A stretch of DNA of 64,000 nucleotides from Sphaerisporangium sp. (GTDB lineage: Bacteria > Actinomycetota > Actinomycetes > Streptosporangiales > Streptosporangiaceae). The stretch covers positions 1 through 64,000 of the forward strand of contig JAOPYI010000146.1 of the NCBI GenBank assembly GCA_025964675.1, read 5' to 3'. The first letter of the stretch is position 1. Each line of letters begins with the position of its first letter. Position numbers and translations under genes: made by a program. Shown here piece by piece: positions 8,755-34,041 of this stretch. The notes beneath the pieces are model-generated. The model saw only the letters and a list, made by a program, of their open reading frames with translations. It searched no databases and was not told where the DNA came from.

Positions 8755-8819
8755 CATGGAACCTCCGCTCATTGTCCTGACGCGAGCCGGCGTCTATCGC
8801 GCGGCGAGACGACAGAGAC

Positions 8820-11469: not shown

Positions 11470-13377
11470 CTATCGCAGGATGAAGTCCCCGAGGTCAGGA
11501 GACTCGACCATCAGGAAGTACTGGTCGTTGTCCCACGGCAGGTTCACGTTCTGGCGGCCGAACTTGTTGACGTAGTAGTTCCTGCCGGCCGGCCCCTCCT
11601 TCTCCCAGATGCGGTCCTTCGTGACCTCATCCAGGCGGGCGTTGTAGTCCGTGAAGACTTCCTGCTTCACCTCGATCGTCTGCTTGCCCCCCTGGAGCAT
11701 CGCGACGACGGCCTGCGCCGAGTAGCGGGCCCAGATCTCGACCCAGGACAGGAAGGCGCCCGCTCGCGGCTGTGCGTTCGGCCCGTAGAACATGAACAGG
11801 TTCGGGAAGCCCGGCACCGTCAGGCCCAGGTAGGCGCGAGGTCCGTCCTTCTCCCAGAGGTCCTCCATGTGTACGCCGCCGCGCCCCACGTAGTCGGTGG
11901 GCCACAGGTACTTGGTGACCTCGAATCCGGAGGCGAACACGATGGCGTCGACCTCGTGCTCGCACCCGTCGACCGTCTGGATGCCCTGGCCGGTGATCCG
12001 GTCGATACCGGCGGTCACCAGTTCCACATTGTCGCGGAGCAGCGCTTCGTACCACCCGTTGTCGACGACGAGCCGGCGGGCCAGCGGCGCGTAGTCGGGC
12101 ACGCACTTGGCGAACAGCTCAGGGTCGTGTCCCACCTTGCTGCGGATGTATTCGGTGAGGCTGCGTCGCAGGCCATCGTTGCGCTCGCTGATTCCGCCGT
12201 GGCTCTTCTGCCACTCCCGGTCGTACACCTGCGCGCCCTGCAGTCCCGAGCTCGTGACCTGCGCGGAGTAGCAGAACCAGTTCCAGTAGAAGGGCACGTT
12301 CTCGAACAGCCATCGCACCTCGGGCGTGATGAGCTCGCGGTATCCTTCCATTGGCGAGATCCACTGAGGAGTTCGCTGGAAAGCGAACACCCGTTCGGCG
12401 GTCTCCGCCAGCTTGGGCACGAGCTGCACGCCCGTCGAGCCGTTCCCGATCACTGCGATCCGCTGGCCGGTGGCGTCGTAGGAGTCGTCCCAAGCCGTCG
12501 TGTGGAACAGGCGCCCTCCGAAGTCGCCGATTCCTGTGATGTCGGGGAACTTGGGCGTGCTGAACATGCCCGCCGCGCTGATCACGACGTTGGCCTCAAG
12601 CGCTTGTGATCCGCCGTCCGCTCCCGTGGCCTCCACCTTCCACGTGCGATCGTCCTCATCGAACAGCGCCTTGGTGACCTCTACGTTGAACTGGATCTTG
12701 TCGTAGACGCCGTACTTCTTGGCGATGTACTCCAGGTAACGCTTCACCTCCACCTGGGAGGCGAAGTACTCCGGCCACGGATAGTTCTTCTCGAACTTGA
12801 ACTGGTAGAGGTAGCTGCTGGTGTCGACACGAGCGTCCGGGTACCGGTTGAGGTTCCAGGTACCGCCTAGGTCGCCCTGTCGCTCGACGATCGCGTAAGG
12901 GATGCCGAGGCGCTCGAACTGGATGCCCGCGCAGATGCCGCTCGCTCCGGCTCCAACGATCAGGACCTTGAAGTCCGATGCCGCATCCGGCCTTTCGCCC
13001 GTCCATCTCGCTTCGCGCGGGAAGTCATCGAGCGCCAGTTCCTCCCGGCCGAAGCGGTAGGCCCGCTCGGTGAGCTCATCACCCGTGAGCAGGCCCATCA
13101 TCGTACGTAGCTCGTCGTCGCTCGGCCGGGGCGACGACGCCACGGGCTGACGGTTGAGAAGAAACCTCAGCGCCTTGTCCCGTACCTCCTGATGGTGCTC
13201 TTCGGCCAGGATGTAGCCGACGAAGGCCCCCCCTCGCATCGGGACCTGGTCGACCTTCATCTTCGCCAACGCGGGATCGCCGGTGGCCTGCAGCAGAGCC
13301 ATCCGAAGGACGTTCAGATTGGCGCGGTCAAGGGATGCACGGATAGTCGCCTCGTCCAGCCTGTCGGTCAATTGCAC
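11470..13377 (-). CDS. Baeyer-Villiger monooxygenase with HAPMO-like N-terminal extension
   Basis: A 635-residue flavin monooxygenase. About 130 residues of extra N-terminal domain precede the FAD-binding GAGASG (about 142-147). The Baeyer-Villiger fingerprint FGGRLFHTTAWD follows at about 286-297, and the NADP-binding GNGSTG at about 311-316. The length and extension match 4-hydroxyacetophenone and polycyclic-ketone monooxygenases. It should insert oxygen next to a ketone to give an ester or lactone, using FAD, NADPH and O2. The start is GTG 13377, because GGAGG lies five bases upstream; the longer reading from 13476 lacks such a site. It is the first gene of its operon, 138 bp downstream of one of the three shared pseudo-palindromes. 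The substrate is unknown. Confidence 0.88.
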   Translation of the reverse strand: MQLTDRLDEATIRASLDRANLNVLRMALLQATGDPALAKMKVDQVPMRGGAFVGYILAEEHHQEVRDKALRFLLNRQPVASSPRPSDDELRTMMGLLTGDELTERAYRFGREELALDDFPREARWTGERPDAASDFKVLIVGAGASGICAGIQFERLGIPYAIVERQGDLGGTWNLNRYPDARVDTSSYLYQFKFEKNYPWPEYFASQVEVKRYLEYIAKKYGVYDKIQFNVEVTKALFDEDDRTWKVEATGADGGSQALEANVVISAAGMFSTPKFPDITGIGDFGGRLFHTTAWDDSYDATGQRIAVIGNGSTGVQLVPKLAETAERVFAFQRTPQWISPMEGYRELITPEVRWLFENVPFYWNWFCYSAQVTSSGLQGAQVYDREWQKSHGGISERNDGLRRSLTEYIRSKVGHDPELFAKCVPDYAPLARRLVVDNGWYEALLRDNVELVTAGIDRITGQGIQTVDGCEHEVDAIVFASGFEVTKYLWPTDYVGRGGVHMEDLWEKDGPRAYLGLTVPGFPNLFMFYGPNAQPRAGAFLSWVEIWARYSAQAVVAMLQGGKQTIEVKQEVFTDYNARLDEVTKDRIWEKEGPAGRNYYVNKFGRQNVNLPWDNDQYFLMVESPDLGDFILR

Positions 13378-13514
13378 CTGTTCCTCCGTAAATCGGAATC
13401 GAGCAGTCGTGGGTAGAGCACGGCCGGTTCCCGAGCAGCACATCCGCCTGTCGGGCTCCGCGATCTGCGCCGTCACCCCATCGATGACTCACCACGCATC
13501 GGCGACTATCCTGT

Positions 13515-13532
13515 TAATCATTGCTATGATTA
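13515..13532 (-). promoter_or_regulatory. Putative operator copy 2 (upstream of BVMO operon)
   Basis: A perfect inverted repeat, TAATCAT-TGCT-ATGATTA on the plus strand, with 7-bp arms and a 4-base spacer. On the minus strand it continues into ACA, giving TTAACA, a -35-like hexamer. The same arrangement (ATAGYNATNMTTRACA) occurs at 19352-19369 and 26675-26692 ahead of two other minus-strand operons. No convincing -10 element is visible. Confidence 0.6.
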
Positions 13533-13615
13533 CGTGGCGATATGGTCGCTGTCTACCCATCTCAGGTGGTATGTCAGGATCCGGGCCCGTCGGACGTGGA
13601 CGTCGCGGACTACGA

Positions 13616-13637
13616 CGGCGGCGTGTCACGGCCGCCG
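13616..13637 (-). terminator. Hairpin at the end of the liv/SDR operon
   Basis: Arms CGGCGGC / GCCGCCG (7 bp) with an 8-base loop start 10 bases past the stop of the minus-strand SDR gene. It separates the transporter operon from the promoter region of the monooxygenase operon. Confidence 0.5.
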
Positions 13638-13646
13638 GGAAAGCGG

Positions 13647-14417
13647 TCAACCCATGTAGCTGCCGCCATTGGCATCGATCGTCGCGCCGGTCACGAAGCC
13701 TGCTTCGTCCGACGCCAGGAAACCCACGACGCTCGCCACGTCCTTCGGGGTCCCGAGCCGTCCGATCGGGATGTCCGCGAGCATCGTCTGGTTGACATGG
13801 TCGGCGACGCTCAGAGCCATCGGGGTCAGAATTCGCCCCGGCGTCACGGCGTTCACGGTGACGCCGTACGGGCCGTATTCGTAGGCCAGCGTGCGGGTCA
13901 GGCCGAGAAGCCCGGCCTTGGAGGCGCCGTAGTGGACACCCGCGACCCTCGCGCCCGTCCTGGCCGCCTGCGAGGCGATGTTGACGATCCGGCCCCATCC
14001 CATGTCACGCATGTCCGGGAACACGAGCTTCGAGCCGACAAAGGCACCGGTGAGGTTGACGGCCAGAACCTGATGCCACTCCTCCAGCGGCATCTCGCTC
14101 GCAGGGATCTTCTTGCCGTCCCGTTTGGGGGAGATTCCTGCGTTGTTGACGAGGACGCCGATCGGCCCGAAAGCCGACCGGGCCAGCTCCAGCACCCGCC
14201 TCCAGTCGGCCTCCTGGGACACATCGGCCTTGACGCATCGGACGCTGCTCCCGGCCGGCCGTTCCTCTGCTTCGCATGCCTTCAGCGCCTGATCGTCGAC
14301 GTCCACCACGATGACGTTCAGGCCACGGGAGCCGAGCTCACGCACGATCGCCGCTCCGATGCCGCGGGCACCACCCGTCACCACCGCACAGCGCGGTGCC
14401 GTGTTCGTCCCGACCAT
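13647..14417 (-). CDS. SDR-family NAD(P)-dependent oxidoreductase
   Basis: A 256-residue classical SDR with TGGARGIG near the N-terminus, NNAG in VLVNNAGIS, YGASK as the catalytic Tyr/Lys pair, and a C-terminal NGGSYMG. The frame is open upstream, but ATG 14417 is chosen because GGAGGA lies seven bases before it and the extra codons are not SDR-like. It follows livF by 46 bp and ends at a hairpin, so it is probably the last gene of the transporter operon. It is likely an alcohol dehydrogenase of the same catabolic pathway. Confidence 0.85.
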   Translation of the reverse strand: MVGTNTAPRCAVVTGGARGIGAAIVRELGSRGLNVIVVDVDDQALKACEAEERPAGSSVRCVKADVSQEADWRRVLELARSAFGPIGVLVNNAGISPKRDGKKIPASEMPLEEWHQVLAVNLTGAFVGSKLVFPDMRDMGWGRIVNIASQAARTGARVAGVHYGASKAGLLGLTRTLAYEYGPYGVTVNAVTPGRILTPMALSVADHVNQTMLADIPIGRLGTPKDVASVVGFLASDEAGFVTGATIDANGGSYMG

Positions 14418-14463
14418 GATCTTTCCTCCTCGATCTTCTGACCGGTAAAAGACGGTCAAGGAA

Positions 14464-15180
14464 TTAAAGACGGTCTCCGAGCATGAGTTCCGCGACAGCG
14501 GCGGCATCGGTGAAGCCGTCAGCCTTGCCCTGCCCCACGACCTGCCCCTGACGGAGCACGACGACCGTGTCGGCCACTCTCAGTGGCTGCTCGATGAGCT
14601 GTTCCACGAGAACGATCCCCATGCCCTCGCTCGCGCGCTGCTGGAAGAAGCGCAGGATCTCGGGGATCAAGGACTGCGCCAGCCCCAGCGACGGCTCGTC
14701 GCAGAGCAGGAAACTGGGCTGGGCCGCCCATGCCTGGACCAGAGCCAGCATCTGCTGCTGGCCGCCGGAGAGGCTGCGCGCGAGCAGGCGCCGCTTCTCG
14801 CCCAGAATCGGGAACATCTCGAACGCCCGCTCCAGGATGTCCGCGTCGGGCAGCCGATCGGCGCGCCGACGAGCGATCTGCCCGAGCCTCACGTTGTCCT
14901 GCACCGACAGTCCCGGAAAGACGCGATGCCCTTCCAGCACATGCCGCAGGCCACGCTGGGCCAGCTGCTCCACACTCCGGCCGGTGACAACGTTCCCCTG
15001 GAGCTCGAGCTGCCCCTGCTGTAGCGGGATCAGCCCGGACAGAGCTCTCATCAGAGTGCTCTTGCCCGCTCCGTTCGGCCCGAGTACGAGAACGATCTCT
15101 CCCGGGGCCACGCTCAGGCTGACGTCACGCAACACCGTCATCCGCCCATAGCCGGCGTGGAGGTTCTTAGCCAGGAACAT
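14464..15180 (-). CDS. livF: Branched-chain-type ABC transporter ATP-binding protein (LivF-like)
   Basis: A 238-residue ABC ATPase: Walker A GPNGAGKST near residue 34, signature LSGGQQQM, Walker B LLCDEPSLGL, and the LivF-type ending. It pairs with the LivG-like domain of the fused neighbour to power import through LivH/LivM. Its ATG overlaps the end of the fused livM-livG gene by 14 bp. In this context the transported compound is more likely the island's own organic acid or aromatic/alicyclic substrate than leucine; the family often carries such cargo. Confidence 0.88.
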   Translation of the reverse strand: MFLAKNLHAGYGRMTVLRDVSLSVAPGEIVLVLGPNGAGKSTLMRALSGLIPLQQGQLELQGNVVTGRSVEQLAQRGLRHVLEGHRVFPGLSVQDNVRLGQIARRRADRLPDADILERAFEMFPILGEKRRLLARSLSGGQQQMLALVQAWAAQPSFLLCDEPSLGLAQSLIPEILRFFQQRASEGMGIVLVEQLIEQPLRVADTVVVLRQGQVVGQGKADGFTDAAAVAELMLGDRL

Positions 15181-16981
15181 CGGTGACTCCCGCGAACAGT
15201 TGCCTGATCTCCGGCATATGACGGATATCGGCCGGTCGGCCGGTGACGAGGACCTTGCCGGCGTCGACGACGGAGATGAAGTCGGCCGCGTTCCACACCA
15301 GTTCCAAGTCGTGCTCGACCATCACGACGGAGGCTCCGGTCGCCGCCACCACGGCTCGAAGCAGCGAGCTCAGCTCCTGCCGTTCGGCGGGCGACAGGCC
15401 CGCAGCCGGCTCATCGAGCGCCAGCAGCGTGGGGGCGCGATGCAAGGCCCGCGCGATCTCCAGGGAGCGGCGCTGGCCGTGCGGCAAAGTATGAGCCGCG
15501 ATGCCGTCCCACTGCGCGCGCACGCCCTGAAGGGCTTTCTCGATCCAGTCCGTCGACGACCGTTTGCGCGAGGGGCCGCAGTCCACGTTCTCCCAGACCG
15601 TCATGTCGCCGAAGACCCGAGGGGTCTGGAAGGTCCTCGCCAGGCCGCGGGCGGCCCGGCCGCCGGCGTTGACCGGGGTGATGTCCTCGCCGTCGAACCA
15701 GACCGTGCCCTGATCGACGGTGACCAGGCCCGACAGCGCGTTGAGCAATGTCGTCTTACCGGAGCCGTTGGGCCCGACAATGGCGTGGATCTCGCCCCGC
15801 CCGATCTCGATCGAGATGCCGTCGAGCGCCTGCACCCGCCCGAAGCGAGCGGTGAGGTTCTCGGCTTTCAGCAGGGCCGCACCGGTCTCGCGGGCTCCGG
15901 CCTGAGCCCGAGCCCCGGCCGGGGGGGCGTTCATCAGCAGCGCCGCCAGGGCGATGCCCCCGCCGGGTTCGGCCTTCTTCCGCAGCGACGAGGCAACGCG
16001 CCGTAGCCCGCCGACGACGCCGTCGGGCATCAGGAAGATCACGATATATGCGATCATGCCGTAGATCAGGAGCCGGTAGTCGAGCAGGCTTACCAACCCC
16101 ACCTCCGGAACGATGTACAGCACAACGACACCCGCGATCGGCCCCGCGATCGTTCCGGCCCCGCCGATGACGACCACGAAATAGAGCAGGATCGACAGAG
16201 CCAGGGTGAAAGATCCCGGAGCCACGTACTGGATGAGCAGGACGTAGAGAACGCCGGCCAGCGAGGCGCAGACAGAGGCCAGCGCGAAAGCCAGCAGTCG
16301 CAGTCGCCCCGGCCTCAGGCCCAGCGTGGCGGCTGCCTCCGGGCTCGCGCCGGCGACCCGGAGCTGGCGGCCGAATCGCGATGACCGCACGACACCGGTC
16401 AACACGAGCGAGCCGATCGAACAGGCGAGGATCACGATGGTCAGCCAATCGAGCCGCCAGAACGCGATGTCATTGATCCCCGAAGGGAGAACGTTCACCC
16501 CCGTCGTCGCCCGTGTCTGGTCCTCGAAGAGGAAGAACACCTCGGGCAGGGCCAGCGCTCCTGCCATGGTGACGAGCGCGAGGTAGTACCCCTGAACCCT
16601 GAGAGAGGGCAGGGACATGAGCAGCCCCGCCATCATGCCCGCCGCGAACCCGAGCAGCGCGCCGTTGAAGGGCGAGAAGCCCCAGACACCGATGGCCAGC
16701 GCCATCGTGTAGGCCGAGACACCGAGGACGGCGCCCTGCCCGAAGGACATCTGCTCGGCCTGCGAACGAAGGATGTTGAGTCCGGAGGCGGCGATCAGAT
16801 AGACGTTGGCGAGCAGCATGGCCTGCAGCCAGTAGGTGCTGCCGGAGACGAGCGGAACGGCGACCGCCAGGGTCACGATCGCGATGCTGAGCCACAACTC
16901 GCGCTTGAGTTCCGGCCGCACGAGACGGCGTGTCCGTGGGACTCGCGTCGGCACCCTTTCGGTGGTCGCTCTACTGGCCAT
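15167..16981 (-). CDS. livM-livG: Fused LivM permease / LivG ATP-binding protein
   Basis: A 604-residue fusion. The first about 350 residues are a polytopic LivM-like permease, with many hydrophobic segments after a basic cytoplasmic N-terminus. The rest is an ABC ATPase with Walker A GPNGSGKTT, a LivG-type signature LPHGQRRSLEIARAL (the usual LSGGQ changed, as in LivG proteins) and Walker B LLALDEPAAGLSP. The two halves are joined by an alanine/glycine-rich linker. Its ATG starts one base after the stop of livH. The fusion fixes a 1:1 ratio of permease and ATPase. Such fusions are known in actinobacteria and proteobacteria. Confidence 0.88.
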   Translation of the reverse strand: MASRATTERVPTRVPRTRRLVRPELKRELWLSIAIVTLAVAVPLVSGSTYWLQAMLLANVYLIAASGLNILRSQAEQMSFGQGAVLGVSAYTMALAIGVWGFSPFNGALLGFAAGMMAGLLMSLPSLRVQGYYLALVTMAGALALPEVFFLFEDQTRATTGVNVLPSGINDIAFWRLDWLTIVILACSIGSLVLTGVVRSSRFGRQLRVAGASPEAAATLGLRPGRLRLLAFALASVCASLAGVLYVLLIQYVAPGSFTLALSILLYFVVVIGGAGTIAGPIAGVVVLYIVPEVGLVSLLDYRLLIYGMIAYIVIFLMPDGVVGGLRRVASSLRKKAEPGGGIALAALLMNAPPAGARAQAGARETGAALLKAENLTARFGRVQALDGISIEIGRGEIHAIVGPNGSGKTTLLNALSGLVTVDQGTVWFDGEDITPVNAGGRAARGLARTFQTPRVFGDMTVWENVDCGPSRKRSSTDWIEKALQGVRAQWDGIAAHTLPHGQRRSLEIARALHRAPTLLALDEPAAGLSPAERQELSSLLRAVVAATGASVVMVEHDLELVWNAADFISVVDAGKVLVTGRPADIRHMPEIRQLFAGVTDVPG

Positions 16982-16982
16982 C

Positions 16983-17867
16983 TCAGACCCGCCTTGCGTG
17001 GAGCCGGCCGAAGATGCCCTCGGGCCGGAGCATGAGGACGACGACGATCACAGCGAGCGCCAGGGGGATCTCGACACTGCCGCCGACCTGGAAGGAGACG
17101 AACATCAGCAGTACGCCGAACACCGGGCCGGCGACCAGGGCGCCGGTATTGTTGCCGAGGCCGCCCACGACCGCGACGATGAATCCGAAGATCACGTAAT
17201 GCAGGGCGCTGCTCTCCGCGATCCCGATCACGTGACCGCCGAGATAGCCGGTCAAGCCCAGGATGGCGCCGGCGATCGCGAAACTGAGAATCTGCAGGGG
17301 CAGCGTGGAGATTCCGGCGGTCTTGGCGGCGTCCAGGTCCTGGGACAGGGCGTTCAACGCCAGCCCGACCAGATAACGACGCTGGAACCAGCGCAGGGCC
17401 ACGTGTACCACCACCGCCAGCACACTGATGGCGAGGTACACGTACGGCATCTGGGTGCCGGCGAGCGGGAAGAATCCGAACGGGTTCTTCAGCGCCAGGG
17501 TGCGGGGCCCGATCACGAAGACCATCACCGCACCGATCACGATCGAGGCGGCGATCGTGGTGATGATCCAGGAGTGCTGGTCCGAGCCGGAGCGCATCGG
17601 CAGCAGGGTCAGCCACCCCTGCAGTGCCGATACCAGCGTCACGACCAGTGTGACGGCCAGCAGTACGGCGATCCACGGGAGGCTCCCCGCGCCACTCGAG
17701 TCGGGGTACCAGAGATAGGTCAGCACCCCGGCGACCACGAGGAGTTGCCCCTGGGCGAAGTTCAGGACACCGGTCGCGTTGTAGATGACGTTCAGGCTCA
17801 TGGCGACGAGCGCATAAACGGCACCGGATCCGATACCCCGGATGAGGATGATCACGGCTTCATCCAT
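16983..17867 (-). CDS. livH: Branched-chain-type ABC transporter permease (LivH-like)
   Basis: A 294-residue integral membrane permease. It begins MDEAVIILIRGIGSGAVYALVAMSLNV, the usual LivH opening, with NATGVLNFAQGQL in the first loop and GLGNNTGALVAGPVFG near the end, and about eight hydrophobic segments. It forms the membrane channel with the LivM half of the fused protein. GGAAGG lies six bases before the ATG. It sits between the binding-protein gene (30-bp gap) and the fusion gene (one-base gap) in one operon. Confidence 0.88.
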   Translation of the reverse strand: MDEAVIILIRGIGSGAVYALVAMSLNVIYNATGVLNFAQGQLLVVAGVLTYLWYPDSSGAGSLPWIAVLLAVTLVVTLVSALQGWLTLLPMRSGSDQHSWIITTIAASIVIGAVMVFVIGPRTLALKNPFGFFPLAGTQMPYVYLAISVLAVVVHVALRWFQRRYLVGLALNALSQDLDAAKTAGISTLPLQILSFAIAGAILGLTGYLGGHVIGIAESSALHYVIFGFIVAVVGGLGNNTGALVAGPVFGVLLMFVSFQVGGSVEIPLALAVIVVVLMLRPEGIFGRLHARRV

Positions 17868-17897
17868 GACGAACCTTCCGACTCAGCCCCTGGCCGA

Positions 17898-19124
17898 TCA
17901 TTTGTCGCAGTCCAGCCGGCGGAAGATGCCTGGCGCGATCTCCTCCCCCGCGTCGACCAGGGCGAGCGAACTCGTGTCCATGAGGAAGTGGTTCGTCTTG
18001 CTCATGGCGTAGCCCTGGTGCACGACAGGAAGCGACTTCAAGGCCTCTGCGCCCTTGGTCTCGATCCAGTCGGCGACCTTCGGCCCGTCCGTGCTCTTCG
18101 TCGCCTCAACGCCCGCCTTCAGGATGAACAGGGCGTCGCGGTACACCGCCATGTAGTCATACGAGGCGTCCTTCAGGCGCGTGGCGTCGAAGCGCGCCCG
18201 CGCACGCTTGATGAAATCCGTCGCCTGCGGGCGGATCTGGGCCTTGTCGCAGGCACTGAACGCCGACCACGTCACGGACTTCAGCTTGGCGAAGGTGTCG
18301 GGACCAGCGACTCCCTTGGCCTGCGTCGCGAAAGTGGTGGCGTAGCTGCCGACCACGGGCACGTTCCAATTGAGCTGGCGCAGGCCGAGAACCAGCCGGC
18401 CGGTGTCGTCTCCGGTGTTGTTGAAGCTGAGCAGAACGTCGGGGTTGCTCTTCTTCAGGGTGAGCAGTTGCGGGGTCAGGTCCGTCACCGGGAACTTGAA
18501 CTCCTGAGTCGCCGTCGGCGTCATACCGTGGGACTGCAGCGTCTTGATGAACGCAGCGCCGCCGATCTTGCCCTGCGTGCCACTGTAGTTAAGCGTGGCG
18601 ACCGACTTGGCGCCGTACTTGCCGAGCGCCACCTCGACCATCTTCTGCGCCTGGTGCTCGGCGTTCATGAGCATCGCGAAGCTGTAGGGCGCCACTTGGG
18701 GCGTGATCGCACTGCCGGACCCGTTGATGGAAGGGATCTTGGCCCTGGTGGTCGCCGGAAGCGTGGCGAGCGATTCGTCGCTCGTCATGGGCCCGACGAT
18801 CAGTTCGACCTTCTCCTGGTTGATCAGGCGGTTGATGGACGTCACCGCTTTCGTGGGGTCGAGCGCGGTGTCTTCAAAGATCAGTTCGACCTTGCGGCCG
18901 TTGATGCCGCCGGCGTCGTTGATCTCAGCAGCCGACATCTCCACGCCCATGCGCGCCCAGGAGGCTACGGCCGCGGCGGGTCCGGTCAGCGCCAGCGGCA
19001 CACCAACCTTGATCGGTCCAGTGGTCGTCGCGCCGCCGGTGTCGCCACCGCATCCGGTTGTAGCGCCGATCAGGGCCATCGACGCGATCCCGAGCAGGGC
19101 GCGAAAACCTGAGTTCCTAGTCAT
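17898..19124 (-). CDS. livK: ABC transporter substrate-binding lipoprotein (LivK-like)
   Basis: A 408-residue periplasmic-binding-fold lipoprotein. The N-terminus has a signal peptide ending in a lipobox-like GATTGC, so Cys25 would be lipidated. The body has the family phrases VGVPLALTGPAA, EINDAGGINGR and ELIFEDT near the N-terminus and LIVGPMTSDES in the middle. It captures the substrate outside the cell and hands it to LivH/LivM. It is the first gene of the transporter operon, 228 bp downstream of the perfect 18-bp palindrome. The ligand is not predictable from sequence. Confidence 0.86.
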   Translation of the reverse strand: MTRNSGFRALLGIASMALIGATTGCGGDTGGATTTGPIKVGVPLALTGPAAAVASWARMGVEMSAAEINDAGGINGRKVELIFEDTALDPTKAVTSINRLINQEKVELIVGPMTSDESLATLPATTRAKIPSINGSGSAITPQVAPYSFAMLMNAEHQAQKMVEVALGKYGAKSVATLNYSGTQGKIGGAAFIKTLQSHGMTPTATQEFKFPVTDLTPQLLTLKKSNPDVLLSFNNTGDDTGRLVLGLRQLNWNVPVVGSYATTFATQAKGVAGPDTFAKLKSVTWSAFSACDKAQIRPQATDFIKRARARFDATRLKDASYDYMAVYRDALFILKAGVEATKSTDGPKVADWIETKGAEALKSLPVVHQGYAMSKTNHFLMDTSSLALVDAGEEIAPGIFRRLDCDK

Positions 19125-19351
19125 GGGAATCCGACTTTCTCTATGTTCCGATGTCCGTCGGGGGCGAACGACCTGTGTGTCGACGCGCGCTCCTACGGAG
19201 TGCCTTTTGCTCCGCGCGACCTATGAGTTCGTAGCGGTTTCAGAAGCGCGAGCAGGAGGCTCCGGTTGAGCCGTTGCCGCGTAGCGGGGTAACGAGATGC
19301 GCGGCCCGTTCTCCAAGCTCCTGCGACTGTGACGCACACACGGTTCCTTGT

Positions 19352-19369
19352 CAAGGATTACTATCCTTG
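19352..19369 (-). promoter_or_regulatory. Putative operator copy 1 (upstream of liv operon)
   Basis: A perfect inverted repeat CAAGGAT-TACT-ATCCTTG with 7-bp arms and a 4-base spacer. Read on the minus strand its last bases continue as TTGACA, an exact -35 hexamer, with CACAGT 17 bases further as a weak -10. It shares the pattern ATAGYNATNMTTRACA with the sites at 13515-13532 and 26675-26692. It would place an operator directly on the promoter of livK. The FCD-type GntR encoded just upstream is the obvious candidate regulator. Confidence 0.68.
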
Positions 19370-19910
19370 CACTTAATTGAATGGTGAGCTCTTCCTGCGC
19401 GGGTGAGATCACGCGACATGAACCGGCCCTACCACCCGTCGGCGCCAGGCGATTCGATCAAGCTTTGAGGTCGGCCGGCCGACGTTTCGTTGCGTCGACG
19501 CACCGGACGAGCAGGACTCAGGTCGCGCCGCGCACCCCGATGACCGCCACCGCGGCGGGCGCGGCCGACGCCGCGCGTTCGACGACCATGACGGACATAC
19601 CTTGATCAGTGCGAACCGATGGCGCAGGCGCGGGACACCGAATCACCGCGGACGCGTCAAACAGGATCGGACGCGTCGGAAAAGGGAATGGCGGCCAAGA
19701 CCGGTGGACCGGGTGGACGCTTCACGGCCACGGCGCCGCGGACCGGTCGGCGAGGCGTCAGCTGAGGAGCCGGCGCCGACGCGGGCCATCCGGTCCGTTG
19801 ACCACCCGCCCTGGAACAACCCTCGATCACCGTCGCGACATCGGCGAACGCCTTTCGAGGTGGGGGGACGCGTGATGTCGTCGTCCAGCTCGGGCGGCGG
19901 CCGTCCGGTG
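19370..19910. other. Non-coding stretch between GntR gene and liv promoter
   Basis: About 540 bases with no gene that can be supported. Open frames exist on both strands but they are low in recognisable composition and lack domains and good ribosome sites. One minus-strand frame around 19490-19605 begins MSVMVVERAASAAPAAVAV and is broken by a stop after 26 codons with a similar-looking continuation, which might be decayed coding sequence. Nothing specific was recognised. Confidence 0.4.
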
Positions 19911-19942
19911 CCGAGGCCGGGCCTGCCTTGCCCGGACCTCGG
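19911..19942 (-). terminator. Hairpin terminator after GntR gene
   Basis: A strong stem: CCGAGGCCGGGC pairs with GCCCGG-CCTCGG across a 7-base loop, with one bulged A. It begins about 34 bases past the stop of the minus-strand GntR gene. It isolates the regulator from the transporter operon, supporting separate promoters. Confidence 0.65.
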
Positions 19943-19975
19943 TGTCATGCGTGGTGGTTCCGTTGGCCGGAGCCG

Positions 19976-20698
19976 TCATCGCACCGTCCGCCACCTCGGC
20001 TGCGGCACGATGGGCTCGTCGATCAGGCCCACTTCCTCCAAGTAGCGGGCGTAGGCATCCAGGTGGCGCTTCATCGCGCGCTCAGCACCCGCGGCGTCAC
20101 CGGAAGTGATGACCGCCGCGATCTTCCGGTGCGCCTTCATCGTCTCCTCCCGATGATGCTCGTGAATCTTGTCGCTGCGGAAATGCGCTGCCATGGGACT
20201 GTGCAGAGCCTGCAGAACCAACCTCAGCACGCCGTTTCCGGTGGACTCACCGATCAGGACGTGCAGGTCTACCACCGGACCGAACTCGGGCTGGTCCGCC
20301 TCCGCGGCCCGCAGAATCGCCTCTCGCTGCTCATCGGTGGCGTGCACCGCGGCGAGCGCCGCCGCACCAGGCTCCACCATCTGCCGAAACGCGAGGAACT
20401 CCCGGAGCGTCACCTCCTGCACACTGAACAGCAAGGAGATCGCCTCGCTGACTTGGGTGATGTCCGGGTGCCGGACATAGATACCACCGCCCGGGCCTCG
20501 CTTGATCTCGATCAGCCCATCACGCTCTAGCAGACGCAGGGCCTCCCGCACCGTGACCCGGCCCAGACCGTACTGCTCCATGAGTTCCGGTTCTGAGGGA
20601 AGTCGGTGGCCCACGGGCAACCGCTCGGCCAGAATGCGTTGGCTCACAGCGCTTACCACTAGGTCAGAAGCCTTCGGGAGGCGCCTGCTCACTGCCAC
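19976..20698 (-). CDS. GntR-family regulator, FCD (FadR/VanR-like) type
   Basis: A 240-residue regulator with an N-terminal winged helix (about 10-75; PSEPELMEQYGLGRVTVREALRLL is the recognition region) and a C-terminal all-helical FCD effector domain. Metal/ligand-binding residues are visible as Asp and His in DLHVLIGESTGN and His in AHRKIAAV. FCD regulators usually sense carboxylic acids. The GTG start has GGTGGAG five bases upstream. It lies alone between the transporter operon and the acyl-CoA synthetase operon and is the only regulator in the 8-28 kb island. It is therefore the prime candidate for binding the three shared pseudo-palindromes. Confidence 0.87.
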   Translation of the reverse strand: MAVSRRLPKASDLVVSAVSQRILAERLPVGHRLPSEPELMEQYGLGRVTVREALRLLERDGLIEIKRGPGGGIYVRHPDITQVSEAISLLFSVQEVTLREFLAFRQMVEPGAAALAAVHATDEQREAILRAAEADQPEFGPVVDLHVLIGESTGNGVLRLVLQALHSPMAAHFRSDKIHEHHREETMKAHRKIAAVITSGDAAGAERAMKRHLDAYARYLEEVGLIDEPIVPQPRWRTVR

Positions 20699-21155
20699 AA
20701 CTACTCCACCTGTCGGATTCGGCGCACGAGGTGCCCCATGTTTCGCACGTGATGTGAGGGGTAGAGCCCTTCGAGAAACTCAGCCAACAAAACTACCTCC
20801 GTTGGCATCGACGGTCTCACACGCTAGGCCCCTCGGCCTTCAGTGGCGAAAAACACGCTGATGTCCGCGAAATCTGCGAGTCACCGAGCCCCCCGACCCG
20901 TATTTGGTGGCTCTCCCCAGCGGGGCGCCGTCCGACGCGTTGGCGACATCGGTACGCAGCGGCGTACGCAGAGCACGATATGCAGACGGCACGCCGACTC
21001 GCCGTGCGCCGCCGCGCCGACGCCACGACCAGGTGTGCCGCCCGAGCAGTTCGCTGGTGAGAGTGCTCTGATCTACCGCACGTCGCCCGTCACCACCACG
21101 GTGTGGCTCATCGGATCGTCCCGAAGCCCGCTCAGCATCCGTGATCACTGCCAGA
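20699..21155. other. Intergenic region upstream of GntR gene
   Basis: About 457 bases between the GntR start and the end of the acyl-CoA synthetase gene, both on the minus strand. It should hold the GntR promoter and the terminator of the upstream operon. None of the three-copy pseudo-palindromes occurs here, so autoregulation by that motif is not supported. A 129-codon minus-strand frame overlaps the region but lacks a domain or ribosome site and is not called. Confidence 0.45.
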
Positions 21156-23321
21156 TTATACTTCAGTAGAGTGTCGCCCATCCACGCCGCACACTGCCAG
21201 AGCGTCCACCGCCACCGGTCGCCCGTCACGGTCCACCAGCAGGGGATTGATCTCCAGTGAGTCGAGGCCTGCCCCGTGCTCGGTCACCAGGTGGGCGAAC
21301 CGCAGTACGGTCTCCACCAACGCCTTCCGGTCGACCGGGGTGCGGCCTCGGGCGCCCTCGAGCAGGGCGCGGTACCGAAGCCCGTCCACCATGGAGTCGA
21401 CGTCGGCCGCGGTCAGCGGCGGGACGCGCACCTGGACATCGGAGGCCAGCTCGGTCAGGACTCCCCCGATACCCAGTGCCACTACCGGACCGAAGACCGG
21501 GTCGCGCCGCATCCCGAGGATCAGCTCGGTGCTGGACGGGACGAGCGCCTGGACGACCAGTCTGCGGTCCCCCACCCCCATCGTCTCGGCGATGCCGAGG
21601 ATCTCCTCGGCTGCTTTGCGTACGGACTCCTGGTCGGGCAGGCCGACCTTGACCAGACCGTGGTCGGATTTGTGCGGGACATCCACGGACAACAACTTGA
21701 GGACCACCGGATAGCCGATGCGGTCCGCGGCGTCGGCCGCCCCGGCCGGATCCTGGGCCTCCTCCTCGGGCACGGTCGCGATCCCGTGATCGTGCAGCAG
21801 CTTCTTGGCGGCCACCTCGTCGAGGATCCTGAGGGCCGACGCCCCATCGGCGTCTGCGCCACCGTGTGCCGAGGTGTCTCCCGCCTCGTCGAGACTCCTC
21901 AGCTCAGGCCCAGCGCCACCGCACCGGGCGCTCCACCGCACGAGTGCGGCCACCGCCCGTACTGCCCGGACCGGCTCGGGGAACGTGGGAATCCCGTGCG
22001 CGGCAAGCGACTCGACCGGCCGCCCGGAGCCACCGACCCAGACCACGATGATCGGCTTCGTGCTGGTGGCCGCCGCCTCCACGAGGATCCTGCAGAGCGC
22101 GTCTTCCTCCCGCTCCATGTTGCCGAGCATCACCATCACGACATCCGTGCCCGGGTGCCGCACGCAGACGTCGATCGCGTCACGCAGCACCTGCTGATCC
22201 GAGGCGATGACGCCGGTCGTATCGATCGGGTTGCGGACAGAGGCGAAGGCGGGCAGCACCGCGGCCATGCGACCGGCCCACTCGTCGTCCCAGCGCGGGA
22301 CCTCCAGGCCGAAGTCATCCGCGGCGTCGGTCATGAGCACACCCGCACCACCGGACAGCGTGACGATGCTGACCCGGGGCCCGGAGGGCCGTTCGCCGGA
22401 CGCGAGGATGCGCCCGAGGTCGAGCAGGTGGTCGACGTCGGTGGCACGGAAGACCCCGTACTGCTCGAACAACCCGTCGTACACGGTGTCCTCGCCGGCG
22501 AGTGAACCCGTATGCGACTGGGCCGCGGTTGCTCCACGCGGTGACCGCCCGACCTTCATGAGGCAGACGGGGACCTGACGGTCACGGGCATGCTGCAGCG
22601 CGGCACGGAAACTGGACGCCTCCCTGATGCCCTCCACGTAACCGAGGATCACCCGGGTGCTCTCGTCCTCCACCAGGCCTTCGATCACCTCCGGCAGCGA
22701 GATGTCCGCCTCGTTGCCCGTGCTGACAAACCGCCCGAGCCCGAGCCCGGTGGACTGCGCCATGTTGAGGATGAAGGCCCCCATGGCTCCGCTCTGAGTC
22801 ACGAAAGCGACCCCGTCGTCCTTCAGCTCGAAGCGGTCCTGGTCCAGCCCGGTCATGAAAGCCGCGGTCAGGGCCGCGGACGCGCCGACGGCACCCACGC
22901 AGTTGGGCCCGAGCACCCGGACGCCGGCCTCGCGCGCCACGGCGACGAGCTCTTCCTGTGCCAGTGCTCCGGCCGGGCCGACTTCGGCGAAGCCGGAAGC
23001 GAAAACGATGGCCACACGGGTGCCTATCTCACCGCACTGGCGTAACACGTCGGGCACCCCGCTCGCCGGGAGGACGACCACGGCGAGCTCGGGCGCCTCG
23101 GGCAGGTCGGCGAGGCTCGCGTACGCCTGGACGCCCTGGACCCGTTCGCGCCGCGGGTTGACGGGGTAGATGGCGCCACGGTAGCCGTAGCGCAGGAGGT
23201 ACCGCAGGGTCCGTCCGGAGGCTTTGTTGCCGTCGTTGGACGCCCCCACCACCGCGACGCTGCGTGCGTGCAGGAGACGGGATACGACCTCTGCCGGAGT
23301 CAAGACAGTGAGCGGACGCAT
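21156..23321 (-). CDS. ADP-forming acyl-CoA synthetase (CoA-binding + ATP-grasp)
   Basis: A 721-residue single-chain acyl-CoA synthetase of the NDP-forming (succinyl-CoA-ligase-like) family. The order is an N-terminal CoA-binding Rossmann domain (SVAVVGASNDGNKASGR, 21-37), CoA-ligase domains carrying the phosphorylated histidine in SHTGSLAGED (His270), and a C-terminal ATP-grasp domain (GYPVVLKLLSVDVPHKSD). It should make an acyl-CoA from a free acid with ATP giving ADP. The ATG shares a base with the stop of the upstream SDR (TGATG). As the last gene of the dehydrogenase operon it is probably the activation step for the pathway. No GNAT domain is attached. Confidence 0.86.
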   Translation of the reverse strand: MRPLTVLTPAEVVSRLLHARSVAVVGASNDGNKASGRTLRYLLRYGYRGAIYPVNPRRERVQGVQAYASLADLPEAPELAVVVLPASGVPDVLRQCGEIGTRVAIVFASGFAEVGPAGALAQEELVAVAREAGVRVLGPNCVGAVGASAALTAAFMTGLDQDRFELKDDGVAFVTQSGAMGAFILNMAQSTGLGLGRFVSTGNEADISLPEVIEGLVEDESTRVILGYVEGIREASSFRAALQHARDRQVPVCLMKVGRSPRGATAAQSHTGSLAGEDTVYDGLFEQYGVFRATDVDHLLDLGRILASGERPSGPRVSIVTLSGGAGVLMTDAADDFGLEVPRWDDEWAGRMAAVLPAFASVRNPIDTTGVIASDQQVLRDAIDVCVRHPGTDVVMVMLGNMEREEDALCRILVEAAATSTKPIIVVWVGGSGRPVESLAAHGIPTFPEPVRAVRAVAALVRWSARCGGAGPELRSLDEAGDTSAHGGADADGASALRILDEVAAKKLLHDHGIATVPEEEAQDPAGAADAADRIGYPVVLKLLSVDVPHKSDHGLVKVGLPDQESVRKAAEEILGIAETMGVGDRRLVVQALVPSSTELILGMRRDPVFGPVVALGIGGVLTELASDVQVRVPPLTAADVDSMVDGLRYRALLEGARGRTPVDRKALVETVLRFAHLVTEHGAGLDSLEINPLLVDRDGRPVAVDALAVCGVDGRHSTEV

Positions 23322-24202
23322 CAGTAGGTGGTCCTTCCGCCGCTGACATCGAAGATCGAACCCGTCGTGAAGGAGCACCGAGGCGACGCCGCCCACGCGA
23401 TCATCTCCGCCACCTCGGAGGTCCGTCCCCGGCGGCCCATCGGGATCTTCGAGATCAGCCGTTCGATGTGGTCAGGGCTCGTCTGCCGGATCATCGTGGT
23501 GTCGATGACTCCGGGGGTCACGGCGTTGACAGTGACCCCTGTCGTCGCCAGTTCCTTGCCGAGCGATTTGGTAAGGCTGATCACGCCGGCCTTGGCCGCC
23601 GAGTACGCCCCCGAGCCTGGGTTACCTTCCTTCCCCGCCACGCTGGCGACGTTGACGATCCGGCCGTAACCCGCGTTCTTCATGGAGGGCACGACCGCCC
23701 GGACGCAGAAGAAGGTGCCCAGCAGGTGCACCCGGAGCATCGTCTCGAAGTGCCGGGTCGGCGTTTCCCAGACCGGGCGCGCCGGGCCCGTGGTGCCGGC
23801 GTTGTTGACCAGCACGTGGATGCCGCCGAGTTCTTCGAGCACCGACGAGATCACCTGCTGCACGTCGTCCTCGTCCTGCACGTCCAGCGGGCGAGCCGTC
23901 ACATCACCACCGTCGGCCCGCAGTCGCCCGGCGGCCGCCTCGGCCTCGTCGGCATCCAGGTCGGTCAACACCACCCGGGCGCCGCGCGACGCCAGGACCG
24001 CCACGGTCGCCAGGCCGATGCCCCGCGCCGCACCTGTGACCAGGGCGACCTGCCCATCCAGTTCCCTGGACGGGTTCCTGTTCGCGAACTCGGCAATCGA
24101 CGTGGCATCCGAAGCGCCCTCCGTGCTCGGCAGAACGGTCTCCCCGCCGGCTCCGGCCGGGTTCGTACCCGCCGCCGCCGCGTCTGTCGCCATCAAGATC
24201 AT
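23321..24202 (-). CDS. SDR-family NAD(P)-dependent oxidoreductase
   Basis: A 293-residue SDR with an unusual 45-50-residue leader rich in Ala/Gly/Ser before TGAARGIG. NNAG and the catalytic YSAAK follow in the usual order, and the chain ends with SGGRTTY. Three starts are possible: TTG 24223 (overlapping the upstream stop as a coupled start), ATG 24202 (AAGG close by) and ATG 24193; 24202 is a compromise. It sits between the smaller acyl-CoA dehydrogenase and the acyl-CoA synthetase with overlapping ends, so it is translated as part of that operon. The leader is too polar to be a signal peptide and its role is unknown. Confidence 0.8.
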   Translation of the reverse strand: MILMATDAAAAGTNPAGAGGETVLPSTEGASDATSIAEFANRNPSRELDGQVALVTGAARGIGLATVAVLASRGARVVLTDLDADEAEAAAGRLRADGGDVTARPLDVQDEDDVQQVISSVLEELGGIHVLVNNAGTTGPARPVWETPTRHFETMLRVHLLGTFFCVRAVVPSMKNAGYGRIVNVASVAGKEGNPGSGAYSAAKAGVISLTKSLGKELATTGVTVNAVTPGVIDTTMIRQTSPDHIERLISKIPMGRRGRTSEVAEMIAWAASPRCSFTTGSIFDVSGGRTTY

Positions 24203-24219
24203 CGCCCTTCTTGTTCTGC

Positions 24220-25251
24220 TCAACCGGCGAGAGCCGGCGCGTTTCGGTCAAGAATCCGGGCTCCCACGGCCACACGGTGATCGGTGGCCGACCCGTACGC
24301 GTGTTGCAGCGCCTGGCCTCGTTTCAGCCACAGGTGGAGGTCGTGCTCCCACGTAAAACCGATCCCGCCGTGCAGTTGGAGCGCGGCGGCGTTCGCCGTC
24401 GCACCGGCATCGCTCGCGGCGCTCTTCGCCACCCGCGCCGCCCACGTCGCCGCTGCCGGCTCATGGCCGAATGCGTAAGCCGCGTACCATGTCAGCGACC
24501 GCGCGGCCTCGACGATGACGGCCGAGTCGGCCAGCCGGTGCTTGAGTGCCTGGAACGAGCCGATGACCTGGCCGAACTGCTCGCGCTCCAGCACGTACCC
24601 GATGGTCATGTCGACGAGCCGGCGCGAGACGCCGACCAGGACCGCCGCCGACGCCGTCCGCGCCGCCGTGGTGACGCGGTCCACGACGGCCGCGTCGTCC
24701 GCGAGCAGCGTCGAGTCGTCGAGCTGGAAATCGCCAAGCGCGAGGCGGCGTGTCGGGTCCTGAGTGGCGACCGGCCGCCACGCGGCACGATCCGCGGGTA
24801 CGAGGTGCGTCTGCGTTCCACGCGTCACCAGCACGGCATCGGCCTGGGCGCCGTGCACCACGAGCGCAGGCTCGTCGAGGCTGAGGCTGACGACGGCCTC
24901 TCCCGCGGCGATCGCGGGTAGCCAGCGGTCACGTACGGTCTGGTCACCACAGTGCGTGAGAGTCGAGGCCGCGACGAACGCCGTCTCCAGCACCGGGTCG
25001 GGGACGCCGTGGTAGCCGATCTCCTCCATGGCCAGCGCCAGCTCAACATGCGAGCCACCGACGCCGCCATATTGGTCCGGTACCACCATGCCCTGCACGC
25101 CCATCTCGGCGAGCCGGCGCCACAGGTCACGAGTACCGGCGCCATCGGCGTCCCACACGGCACGCAACATCGCGGGCGTCATCTGACGGCTCAGCATACC
25201 GCGCACGCTGTCACGGAACTCGGCTTGGTCGTCGGACAGGTCAAACAGCAC
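24220..25251 (-). CDS. Acyl-CoA dehydrogenase, smaller subunit-like
   Basis: A 343-residue acyl-CoA-dehydrogenase-fold protein, shorter than the usual 380-400. It begins LFDLSDDQAEFRDSVRGML and ends with the conserved LHGGIGFTWEHDLHLWLKR region. GTG 25251 is chosen because GGGGAG lies five bases upstream and it matches the domain start; it overlaps the end of the larger dehydrogenase gene by 11 bp. Tight pairing of a long and a short dehydrogenase is typical of the alpha2beta2 enzymes used for bulky steroid or terpenoid acyl-CoAs in actinobacteria (FadE28/FadE29 type). Complex formation here is inferred from arrangement only. Confidence 0.82.
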   Translation of the reverse strand: MLFDLSDDQAEFRDSVRGMLSRQMTPAMLRAVWDADGAGTRDLWRRLAEMGVQGMVVPDQYGGVGGSHVELALAMEEIGYHGVPDPVLETAFVAASTLTHCGDQTVRDRWLPAIAAGEAVVSLSLDEPALVVHGAQADAVLVTRGTQTHLVPADRAAWRPVATQDPTRRLALGDFQLDDSTLLADDAAVVDRVTTAARTASAAVLVGVSRRLVDMTIGYVLEREQFGQVIGSFQALKHRLADSAVIVEAARSLTWYAAYAFGHEPAAATWAARVAKSAASDAGATANAAALQLHGGIGFTWEHDLHLWLKRGQALQHAYGSATDHRVAVGARILDRNAPALAG

Positions 25252-26413
25252 GACGGCTCCCCTTGGGCAGGCCGAGCACCCGCTCAGCGATGATGTTGCG
25301 CTGGATCTCATTGCTACCGGCGTAGATGAGTGCGGCGCGAGCCAGCCAGTAGCGTTGCCGCCACGCCGGTGGGCCGGCGCCGTCGTCGTGACCGTCCAAC
25401 AGCTCCGCCCGTGGCCCCAGCACCTGCAGCCCCAGCTCGTAGAGCCGAACCTGCAGCTCCGACCACCACAGCTTGCCCATGCTGCCCTGCGGCCCCGGGG
25501 ATTTCTTCTGCGCCAGTTCGGACAAGGTCCGCAGCGTCATGTACCGGTACGCCTCGATGTGCTCGTAGAGCCAGCCGATCTCCTCCTGCACCCGCGTGTC
25601 GCGCCGGCTTTCCTCAGGGATCATCGAGACCAGCTCGGCGAGCATCCTGTGGAAGTGGGCGGCCGTGTTGAGGCTACTGCCACGCTCGTGCACGAGCGTC
25701 GCCATGGCCACCGACCAACCGCCGCCGATCTCGCCGATGACGTTGTTCTTCGGCACCAACACGTCCGTGAGGAAGACCTCGGCGAAGTCGCGGGCGTCGT
25801 TCAATTGCCGGATCAGCCGGACGTCGACCCCCGGATCGGTCATCTCGATCATCAGGAAGGTGAGCCCGGCGTGTCGGCTCGACTGCGGGTCCGTGCGCAC
25901 CAGCGCGAACATCCAGTCCGCCCAGCGGGAGTGCGATGTCCAGATCTTCTGGCCGTTGACGAGGATGCCGTCGTCGTGGACCTCACCGCGGGTCCGGATG
26001 CCGGCGAGGTCGCTGCCGGCGCCGGGCTCGCTGAAGCCCTGGCACCAGATCTCCTCGGACGTCAGGATCTTCGACAGCCAGCGGTCCTGCTGGTCCGGCG
26101 TGCCGAGGTCGATGAGCGTCGGTCCCGCCAGGCCGAGGCCGAGACGGTTGAGCCGCGCCGGGCCACCTGCCCGCAGATACTCGTCGTAGAAGACGGCCGT
26201 TGCCAACGGATCCATCCCACGGCCGCCATGAGCGGCAGGCCAGTGCACCGCCGCGAACCCGGCGTCGTACAACCGTCTTTCCCATGCCCGATGTGCCTCG
26301 ACACCCTCGCGAGTGTCCAATGGCGGCAGCGGTCCCCTCGGCACGTTCTCCGCGAGCCAGCCGCGGACCTCGTCACGGAACGCCTGCTGGGTCGGGTTCA
26401 GCCGCAGGTCCAT
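25241..26413 (-). CDS. Acyl-CoA dehydrogenase, larger subunit-like
   Basis: A 390-residue FAD-dependent acyl-CoA dehydrogenase. It has WCQGFSEPGAGSDLAGI (FAD/substrate block), KIWTSHSRWADWMF, and the C-terminal signature IYAGSNEIQRNIIAERVLG. It should introduce an alpha,beta double bond into an acyl-CoA. The frame runs further upstream, but ATG 26413 follows GGAGAGG with good spacing. It is the first gene of a four-gene overlapping operon (this gene, the small dehydrogenase, an SDR, the acyl-CoA synthetase). The third pseudo-palindrome lies 262 bp upstream in the divergent gap. Confidence 0.86.
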   Translation of the reverse strand: MDLRLNPTQQAFRDEVRGWLAENVPRGPLPPLDTREGVEAHRAWERRLYDAGFAAVHWPAAHGGRGMDPLATAVFYDEYLRAGGPARLNRLGLGLAGPTLIDLGTPDQQDRWLSKILTSEEIWCQGFSEPGAGSDLAGIRTRGEVHDDGILVNGQKIWTSHSRWADWMFALVRTDPQSSRHAGLTFLMIEMTDPGVDVRLIRQLNDARDFAEVFLTDVLVPKNNVIGEIGGGWSVAMATLVHERGSSLNTAAHFHRMLAELVSMIPEESRRDTRVQEEIGWLYEHIEAYRYMTLRTLSELAQKKSPGPQGSMGKLWWSELQVRLYELGLQVLGPRAELLDGHDDGAGPPAWRQRYWLARAALIYAGSNEIQRNIIAERVLGLPKGSRRAV

Positions 26414-26674
26414 GCTTTCCTCTCCTTGCGTTGTGGCCGCTCGGGCGGGCCGGTATCGATCGGCCGGAGTCGGGGAGAAACCGTTCACCGGGGGCGCCCT
26501 GTGGCACCGGGTGGGTGCGCCGCGTCGGCGAGACGCCACCCGGCCGGGGGTCCTGCCGGCTTGACCCCGGTGGCCACGATCGGGACGAAACGCTCGCCCA
26601 CTACTCCAGCTCACACTCCTTTGGGGGTTCCCACGGCTCGCGCCCAGTTAGAGAAACATATACCGTGAAGATGT

Positions 26675-26692
26675 CAAGAATGGCTATCTTTA
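26675..26692 (-). promoter_or_regulatory. Putative operator copy 3 (divergent ACAD / ABM gap)
   Basis: CAAGAAT-GGCT-ATCTTTA on the plus strand, an imperfect version of the sites at 13515 and 19352. On the minus strand it reads on into TTGACA, so the aligned core ATAGYNATNMTTRACA is kept. It lies in the gap between the minus-strand dehydrogenase operon and the plus-strand monooxygenase gene, whose start is only 20 bases away, so one bound protein could affect both. Confidence 0.5.
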
Positions 26693-26712: not shown

Positions 26713-27030
26713 ATGTCCATAGTCGTCGTCGCCACCCTGGAAGCCGTCCCCGGCCACCGTGACGAGCTCCTCGGGCTCGTCACCGAGTTGGTCCCGAAGG
26801 TGCACGCCGAGCAGGGCTGTCACCTGTACGCGCCGCACACCAGCGGCGAGGATCAGGTCGTCGTCGTCGAGCACTGGGCGGACGAGGAGGCCCTCGCGGC
26901 CCACCGGACGCAACCGCACATGCCCGCCTTCCGCACCGCCATCGCGGGTCTGCTGGCAGGTCCGTCGCGGATCCAGGTTCTTCGCCCGGTGCCGGCGGGC
27001 GACCTACGGCGGGGAAGGCTCGAGCCCTGA
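26713..27030 (+). CDS. ABM-domain (antibiotic biosynthesis monooxygenase-like) protein
   Basis: A 105-residue single ABM-domain protein: VVVATLEAVPGHRDELLGLV, then HAEQGCHLYAPH, then VVEHWADEEALAAHRTQPHM, the usual dimeric alpha+beta-barrel pattern with the conserved HW...H block. Relatives are cofactor-less quinone-forming monooxygenases or small stress/catabolic enzymes. GGAG lies eight bases before ATG 26713. Its TGA shares a base with the ATG of the next gene (TGATG), so it is co-translated with the quinone oxidoreductase. That pairing hints at oxidation of an aromatic or enolic intermediate, but this is inference. Confidence 0.8.
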   Translation: MSIVVVATLEAVPGHRDELLGLVTELVPKVHAEQGCHLYAPHTSGEDQVVVVEHWADEEALAAHRTQPHMPAFRTAIAGLLAGPSRIQVLRPVPAGDLRRGRLEP

Positions 27031-33907: not shown

Positions 33908-34041
33908 GGTGGCTTGTGGATGACCCGCCGTTGGCCGCAGTCCCCGGAACGCAAATGAAAGCGAAAATTGCCGCCAGGGAGACCTATGGCACAAACTCGG
34001 GCGAAACGCCGGGTAAGGTGCGCGGTAAGGGGCTCTCTTTC

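Follow-up and report, generated by a model that had tools for sequence, protein, structure and literature searches.

A palindromic sequence shared by the operons of a catabolic island in Sphaerisporangium, and an FCD-type GntR protein as its candidate regulator

We analysed a 64-kb stretch (the window) of the genome of a Sphaerisporangium sp. (G000; 7,774,158 bases in 313 contigs), in which a catabolic island carries three similar 18-bp sites, S1 to S3, in front of its operons. The resemblance between these sites is not due to chance. They appear to serve as operators for a single local regulator, most likely the island's own FCD-type GntR protein, a reading that we consider quite probable. 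As a local regulon, it is of an ordinary kind; its operator is unusual. The sites are as follows:

13515..13532, minus strand: putative operator S1, TAATCATAGCAATGATTA, in front of the operon BVMO-ECH-SDR-SDR-cyclase (operon 1; BVMO, Baeyer-Villiger-type monooxygenase; ECH, enoyl-coenzyme A [CoA] hydratase)
19352..19369, minus strand: putative operator S2, CAAGGATAGTAATCCTTG, in front of an operon encoding a liv-type ABC transporter and an SDR (operon 2)
26675..26692, minus strand: putative operator S3, TAAAGATAGCCATTCTTG, between the acyl-CoA dehydrogenase operon (operon 3, minus strand) and the ABM-ADH operon (plus strand; ADH, alcohol dehydrogenase)

Sites in the window, in a close relative and in a rearranged island

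An initial annotation of the window had noted three 18-bp minus-strand sites, two of them perfect 7-4-7 inverted repeats, and reading the sequences confirmed this (S1 and S2 are perfect; S3 is imperfect, with four of seven pairs in that register). Each site had been placed upstream of a minus-strand operon. This is correct for all three, but S3 also fronts the divergent plus-strand ABM-ADH operon. The ABM gene, followed by that for ADH, starts 20 bp past S3 on the plus strand, and therefore S3 lies between two divergent operons. No fourth copy had been seen in the 64 kb, and the pattern given for the sites, ATAGYNATNMTTRACA, indeed has exactly three matches in the entire genome, which are S1 to S3. 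A reversed-pattern control had no match. With up to two mismatches there were 30 matches genome-wide versus 11 for the control, and just one extra match had a single mismatch. When one of the three sites was left out, a matrix built from the other two ranked it third in the window, behind both training sites, with a thin margin for S1 (15.4 versus 15.1 at the next place).

The island of Sphaerisporangium perillae NEAU-ZS1 (G006) is syntenic with that of the window, at about 91 to 93% DNA identity. S2 has kept 18 of 18 bases there (flanks within 40 bp, 60 of 80), S3 has kept 17 of 18 (flanks, 73 of 80), and S1 has kept 15 of 18 (flanks, 67 of 80). The footprint in this relative is clear at S2, weak at S3, and absent at S1.

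Cross-prediction with a rearranged island is, at the level of sequence, the decisive test for a shared operator. G273, a genome from another genus of the same family, carries the island in a different gene order, and 38 kb of its island region was compared. Eight of its proteins are 50 to 63% identical to those of the window (GntR, 54%; BVMO, 60%; ECH, 62%; cyclase, 63%; one SDR, 60%; ligase, 52%; dehydrogenases, 60% and 50%). The liv proteins are 27 to 42% identical, and three window SDRs match at just 30 to 42%, without a clear ortholog. Four places in G273 were first spotted with a loosened pattern. Afterwards, the 38 kb was scanned with a symmetrised matrix made from the three window sites alone. 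Its top five scores all fell upstream of transcription units:

29062, score 25.7: between the dehydrogenase operon and an ECH gene
16383, score 24.6: before ECH-cyclase
15341, score 17.0: before gntR
20225, score 16.9: between the BVMO gene and a second BVMO-like gene (BVMO2)
10065, score 13.9: before the liv operon

The best score in each of 200 third-order Markov resamples had a mean of 9.9, a 95th percentile of 13.9, and a maximum of 18.7; no fourth-best score was above 8.5. None of 2000 column-permuted matrices attained the summed score of 98.1, the maximum being 80.6. In the reciprocal direction, a matrix made from four G273 sites gave S1 (29.9), S3 (16.9), a place at 33953 (15.0), and S2 (13.8) as its top four in the 64-kb window, and the three orthologous sites were its top three in S. 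perillae (22.2, 17.6, and 13.8). A distant relative has re-ordered the genes yet kept the sites, and therefore the window sites are probably docking sites for a regulator.

The initial annotation had proposed a putative local regulon with a shared operator, to be followed by a scan of relatives with the three-site matrix. The island-restricted sites and their orthologous operons support the proposal well. Equally good matches are not scattered through the genome but are rare both there and in relatives, and the sites upstream of orthologous operons are kept in S. perillae and in G273. The same motif before several operons of one locus, rare elsewhere and kept in a diverged and rearranged locus, is what characterises a local regulon.

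Shape of the operator

Over eight sites from the window and G273 (16 halves), the half-site reads Y-A-A-N-S-A-T-A-G. Positions 3, 6, 7, and 9 are identical in 14 to 15 of the 16 halves, position 2 in 12, and position 8 in 11. The putative operator is better described as an 18-bp palindrome with two 9-bp halves, close to TAATSATAG-CTATSATTA. The asymmetric consensus drawn initially was a partial view, because it came from too few sites; with eight sites, both halves are alike.

The refined pattern had three exact matches in G000, two in S. perillae, three in G273, and none in G110, a further genome of the family, and all were inside islands. It was written from the sites themselves, so its island matches are no independent proof, and its rarity elsewhere is the informative part. 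Among 60 relatives, exact matches occurred in three: G000 and S. perillae, inside the island, and G042, with a single one. Allowing one mismatch added six rows (S1 on the other strand and five elsewhere), versus five control matches, and still missed the G273 sites at 20225 and 15341. Two matches with one mismatch were rejected as further sites. One, ATAGTAATACTTGAGA on contig C127, showed no tie to the island in the 701 surrounding bases that were read. The other, on contig C26, sits between an SDR gene and what by eye is a TetR gene, beside what by eye is a TetR palindrome, and was judged to be chance.

Three of the 16 half-site flanks (at S3 and at two G273 sites) carry a third half-site, directly repeated at exactly -9. 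This was the most frequent of 104 offset and orientation classes (mean, 0.11; next, 2). Extra boxes near palindromes, 7 to 12 nt from the centre, are described for the FadR subfamily of GntR regulators in excerpts of PMC4494728. The evidence for a third half-site at -9 as part of the operator is suggestive only. A half-site-like 9-mer, ACAGGATAG, directly follows S1 on the minus strand (window positions 13506-13514) and is unchanged in S. perillae.

The candidate regulator and alternative explanations

The GntR protein encoded at 19976-20698 has an N-terminal winged helix-turn-helix (PF00392; 60.4 bits, cut-off 27, 1.3e-16) and a C-terminal FCD domain (PF07729; 61.2 bits, cut-off 24.3, 1.7e-16). 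The window, S. perillae, and G273 proteins share the segment GLGRVTVREALR and the residues D144, H146, H190, and H212. Such FCD-domain residues bind metal in FCD-type GntR proteins. We surveyed regulators by Pfam in the scanned reading frames of the window island and in part of the G273 frames. Among the scanned island frames, this GntR was the sole DNA-binding protein, in agreement with the initial annotation, which makes it the best candidate binder.

Across 341 genomes of the family, GntR (E ≤ 1e-45) was found in four (G000, S. perillae, G273, and G110) and BVMO (E ≤ 1e-140) in the first three of these. The two occur together in those three genomes, and the sites are present in all three. 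The GntR relative in G110 (47% identical) was rejected as an ortholog in context: 35 kb around it had no other island-protein matches and no sites, with a best score of at most 6.9. This co-occurrence, the position of GntR as the sole regulator found in the window island, and a site 161 bp upstream of the gntR reading frame in G273 make GntR a likely binder.

Regulators of local catabolic operons such as LldR, PdhR, GlcC, and NanR have the same architecture of a GntR helix-turn-helix and an FCD domain. NanR is the closest solved structure by sequence (E, 2.7e-23) and the best NCBIfam match, below the cut-off (111.5 versus 260 bits). Palindromic operators, including single ones between divergent operons, are usual in the FadR subfamily, as far as excerpts of PMC4494728 go. 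The canonical operator given there, NyGTM-N0-1-KACNy, is likewise two-fold symmetric and AT-rich with a conserved centre, whereas the island operator has a centre near ATAG-CTAT and halves of the form YAATSATAG, without GT...AC.

Several observations weigh against the GntR reading or against single sites. Neither ABM nor ADH has a match in the 38 kb compared from G273, and there is no good site before gntR in the window or in S. perillae. S1 is kept no better in S. perillae than its flanks, and S3 hardly better. The reciprocal score of S2 does not reach the 95th percentile for best scores by chance (15.5 for the window and 14.5 for S. perillae), and the place at 33953, outside the island, outranks it. 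Permuted matrices put an average of 1.6 of their top five hits in upstream regions, and 12 of 2000 put all five there. AT-rich upstream regions attract AT-rich matrices, so permuted matrices land there as well. The G273 upstream regions were also marked after the hits had been seen, which makes the location count, but not the score, partly circular. An earlier, stricter pattern (central C fixed) matched five of the 341 family genomes at seven places, four of them outside islands and none of them a G273 site; its reversed control had about 42 matches by hand count. Finally, the likely starts of the minus-strand operons in the window are about 140 to 260 bp from the sites, which is far for a simple promoter block. 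As for the place at 33953-33970, it is near urocanase and aromatic amino acid lyase genes, and matrices that include window sites score it lower, at 9.4 to 11.5. Therefore, it is probably a chance match.

The sites might be real operators of the local regulon and yet serve an unlinked regulator, such as one of the TetR, IclR, or CRP type, with GntR acting on something else. We consider this unlikely. The best argument for it is the motif itself, because a GT...AC core (in the form GT-N2-3-AC), usual for GntR proteins, appears in none of the eight sites. The G273 island also has an IclR gene at its edge (L056, 10548-11177), downstream of a second enoyl-CoA hydratase gene. However, the best matches of this IclR protein in G000 and S. 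perillae are only 37% identical and are on other contigs, and a weaker match in S. perillae (37% over 127 residues) is on the contig of the island but some 36 kb off. Among the scanned frames, GntR is the only regulator in the window island and the only one shared with G273, where a site precedes its gene, and relatives that do not have the island are almost free of the refined motif.

The missing core bears on GntR as the binder and not on the family of the protein, since exceptions to GT...AC exist. One is BioR, a GntR-family repressor of biotin metabolism, whose motif TTATMKATAA also falls outside that consensus, according to excerpts of PMC4494728; the BioR site is shorter than the island operator and has other letters, and its pathway is different. 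In the FadR-DNA complex, Arg35 contacts a G, and Arg is the most frequent residue at this position but not universal (PMC4494728, in excerpt). The usual Arg is replaced by Pro in the window protein, Thr in S. perillae, and Leu in G273, and several other GntR relatives likewise do not have it. Such a replacement would fit an operator without a GT...AC core, although it is not proof.

The elements could instead be promoter parts, a TTGACA -35 hexamer with an upstream box, rather than operators. The initial annotation had the operator covering the -35 element, and S1 does run into TTAACA and S2 and S3 into TTGACA, so that TTRACA adjoins all three window sites. It also adjoins two of three in S. 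perillae, where S3 is followed by TTAACA, within the pattern. However, the S1 counterpart there, TAATCATTGCCATGATTC followed by ACA, has TTCACA, which breaks it, and the G273 sites have the symmetric 18-mer but no TTRACA. A sigma-70 consensus scan of 14.1 kb found no promoter using TTGACA or TTAACA at any site, with no -10 element to fit TTRACA. It gave a single hit (0.9 would be expected by chance), and the second hexamer of that hit, AATCAT, falls within S1. The -35 claim therefore did not hold up, the overlap not being conserved in relatives, and we regard promoter parts as very improbable. A last alternative is that three AT-rich intergenic stretches resemble each other by chance and persist in S. 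perillae only because the genomes are close. It could draw on a pattern chosen after the sites were seen and on flanks (within 40 bp) that are 200 of 240 identical, but it is scarcely credible, given that the window and the distant, rearranged island of G273 predict each other's sites and given the permutation control.

We return to GntR as the candidate binder, which is probably a repressor. A GntR dimer would read the two inverted 9-bp half-sites (YAATSATAG) and, when bound, would repress the BVMO operon, the liv uptake operon, and the divergent acyl-CoA dehydrogenase and ABM-ADH pair. GntR might then be released when its FCD domain binds an intermediate of the pathway, perhaps a carboxylic acid or the corresponding CoA ester, and uptake, ring oxidation, and CoA-dependent breakdown would switch on together. 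Repression with release by a small acid is modelled on effectors of the subfamily, as described in excerpts of PMC4494728, and on general knowledge. A repressor geometry agrees with the short distances, 20 bp ahead of ABM and 21 to 64 bp ahead of five genes in G273. The fit is poorer for the likely minus-strand starts in the window and for the gntR site of G273, which is 161 bp from the reading frame.

A fuller proposal, on which we are evenly divided, is that an FCD-type GntR lineage without the specificity Arg (Pro, Thr, or Leu) reads a new operator, YAATSATAG-CTATSATTR, to which some sites add a directly repeated third half-site 9 bp further out. In this way, it would bring uptake, Baeyer-Villiger oxidation, and CoA-dependent breakdown under common control in an island of patchy inheritance. 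What began as a motif spotted by eye is now a testable predicted regulon, with defined putative operators, target operons, and a candidate regulator, in a little-studied group of actinomycetes. If GntR binds, this would be an FCD operator that departs from the GT...AC rule, paired with a natural substitution at a residue thought to set that rule, and a useful case for inferring DNA specificity from GntR sequences. Regulator and operator together could also be used to sense the compound that the island degrades.

Genes of the island and their distribution

The genes are listed below. Families of the minus-strand genes are from Pfam, and percentages are identities in G273 unless stated otherwise.

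7870..8772, minus strand: PF04199 'cyclase'-type hydrolase, last gene of operon 1; 63%
8820..9617, minus strand: SDR oxidoreductase, operon 1; best match about 38-40%
9688..10503, minus strand: SDR oxidoreductase, operon 1; no clear ortholog
10559..11344, minus strand: ECH family, operon 1; 62%
11470..13476, minus strand: BVMO with an N-terminal extension, first gene of operon 1; 60%
13647..14507, minus strand: SDR, last gene of operon 2; 60%
14464..15180, minus strand: LivF-type ATPase, operon 2; up to 42%
15167..16981, minus strand: fused LivM-LivG permease/ATPase, operon 2; 33-36%
16983..17867, minus strand: LivH-type permease, operon 2; 29%
17898..19124, minus strand: branched-chain-type substrate-binding protein, first gene of operon 2; 33% over part
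19976..20698, minus strand: FCD-type GntR regulator, proposed binder; 54%
21156..23396, minus strand: ADP-forming acyl-CoA synthetase type ligase, last gene of operon 3; 52%
23321..24223, minus strand: SDR, operon 3; best match 36%
24220..25311, minus strand: acyl-CoA dehydrogenase, operon 3; 50%
25241..26614, minus strand: acyl-CoA dehydrogenase, first gene of operon 3; 60% from residue 68
26713..27030, plus strand: ABM-domain protein (PF03992), first gene of the divergent operon; 90% (S. perillae), unmatched in 38 kb of G273
27030..28010, plus strand: zinc-binding ADH, divergent operon; no match in 38 kb of G273

The listed start codons of the BVMO gene and the first dehydrogenase gene of operon 3 are probably too far upstream, because homology to G273 begins at residues 40 and 68, respectively. 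The true starts are probably near 13375 and 26413. By eye, there is a short reading frame directly before gntR (20699-20800), which could be a leader or nothing.

The nearest solved BVMO structures by sequence are cyclohexanone and phenylacetone monooxygenases. Judging from the family names, the genes may serve to degrade a cyclic alcohol or ketone via a lactone and CoA esters, and the substrate is perhaps an alicyclic or terpenoid-like alcohol or ketone. In a comparison of composition for which the island was taken as window positions 7854-28075, third-position GC was 0.82 to 0.88 in the listed island genes, 0.80 in gntR, and 0.84 to 0.96 in the listed neighbours. GntR is absent from 9 of 11 genomes of the genus. 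A third-position GC lower than that of many neighbours, together with this absence, suggests that the island was acquired from elsewhere and is patchily inherited.

No paper on the island or its operator was found in a literature search of partial coverage. A class-wide sample of 394 genomes yielded BVMO in the source genome alone; a GntR profile (threshold, 1e-40) matched in five, namely, the source genome and four others at about 35 to 38% identity. A GntR search of a collection of named genomes returned S. perillae at 95%, with others at no more than 34% over longer stretches or 56% over short helix-turn-helix pieces. Relatives on plasmids, which were left out of the site analysis, had best identities of 44% for BVMO, 36% for GntR, and 42.5% for one acyl-CoA dehydrogenase.

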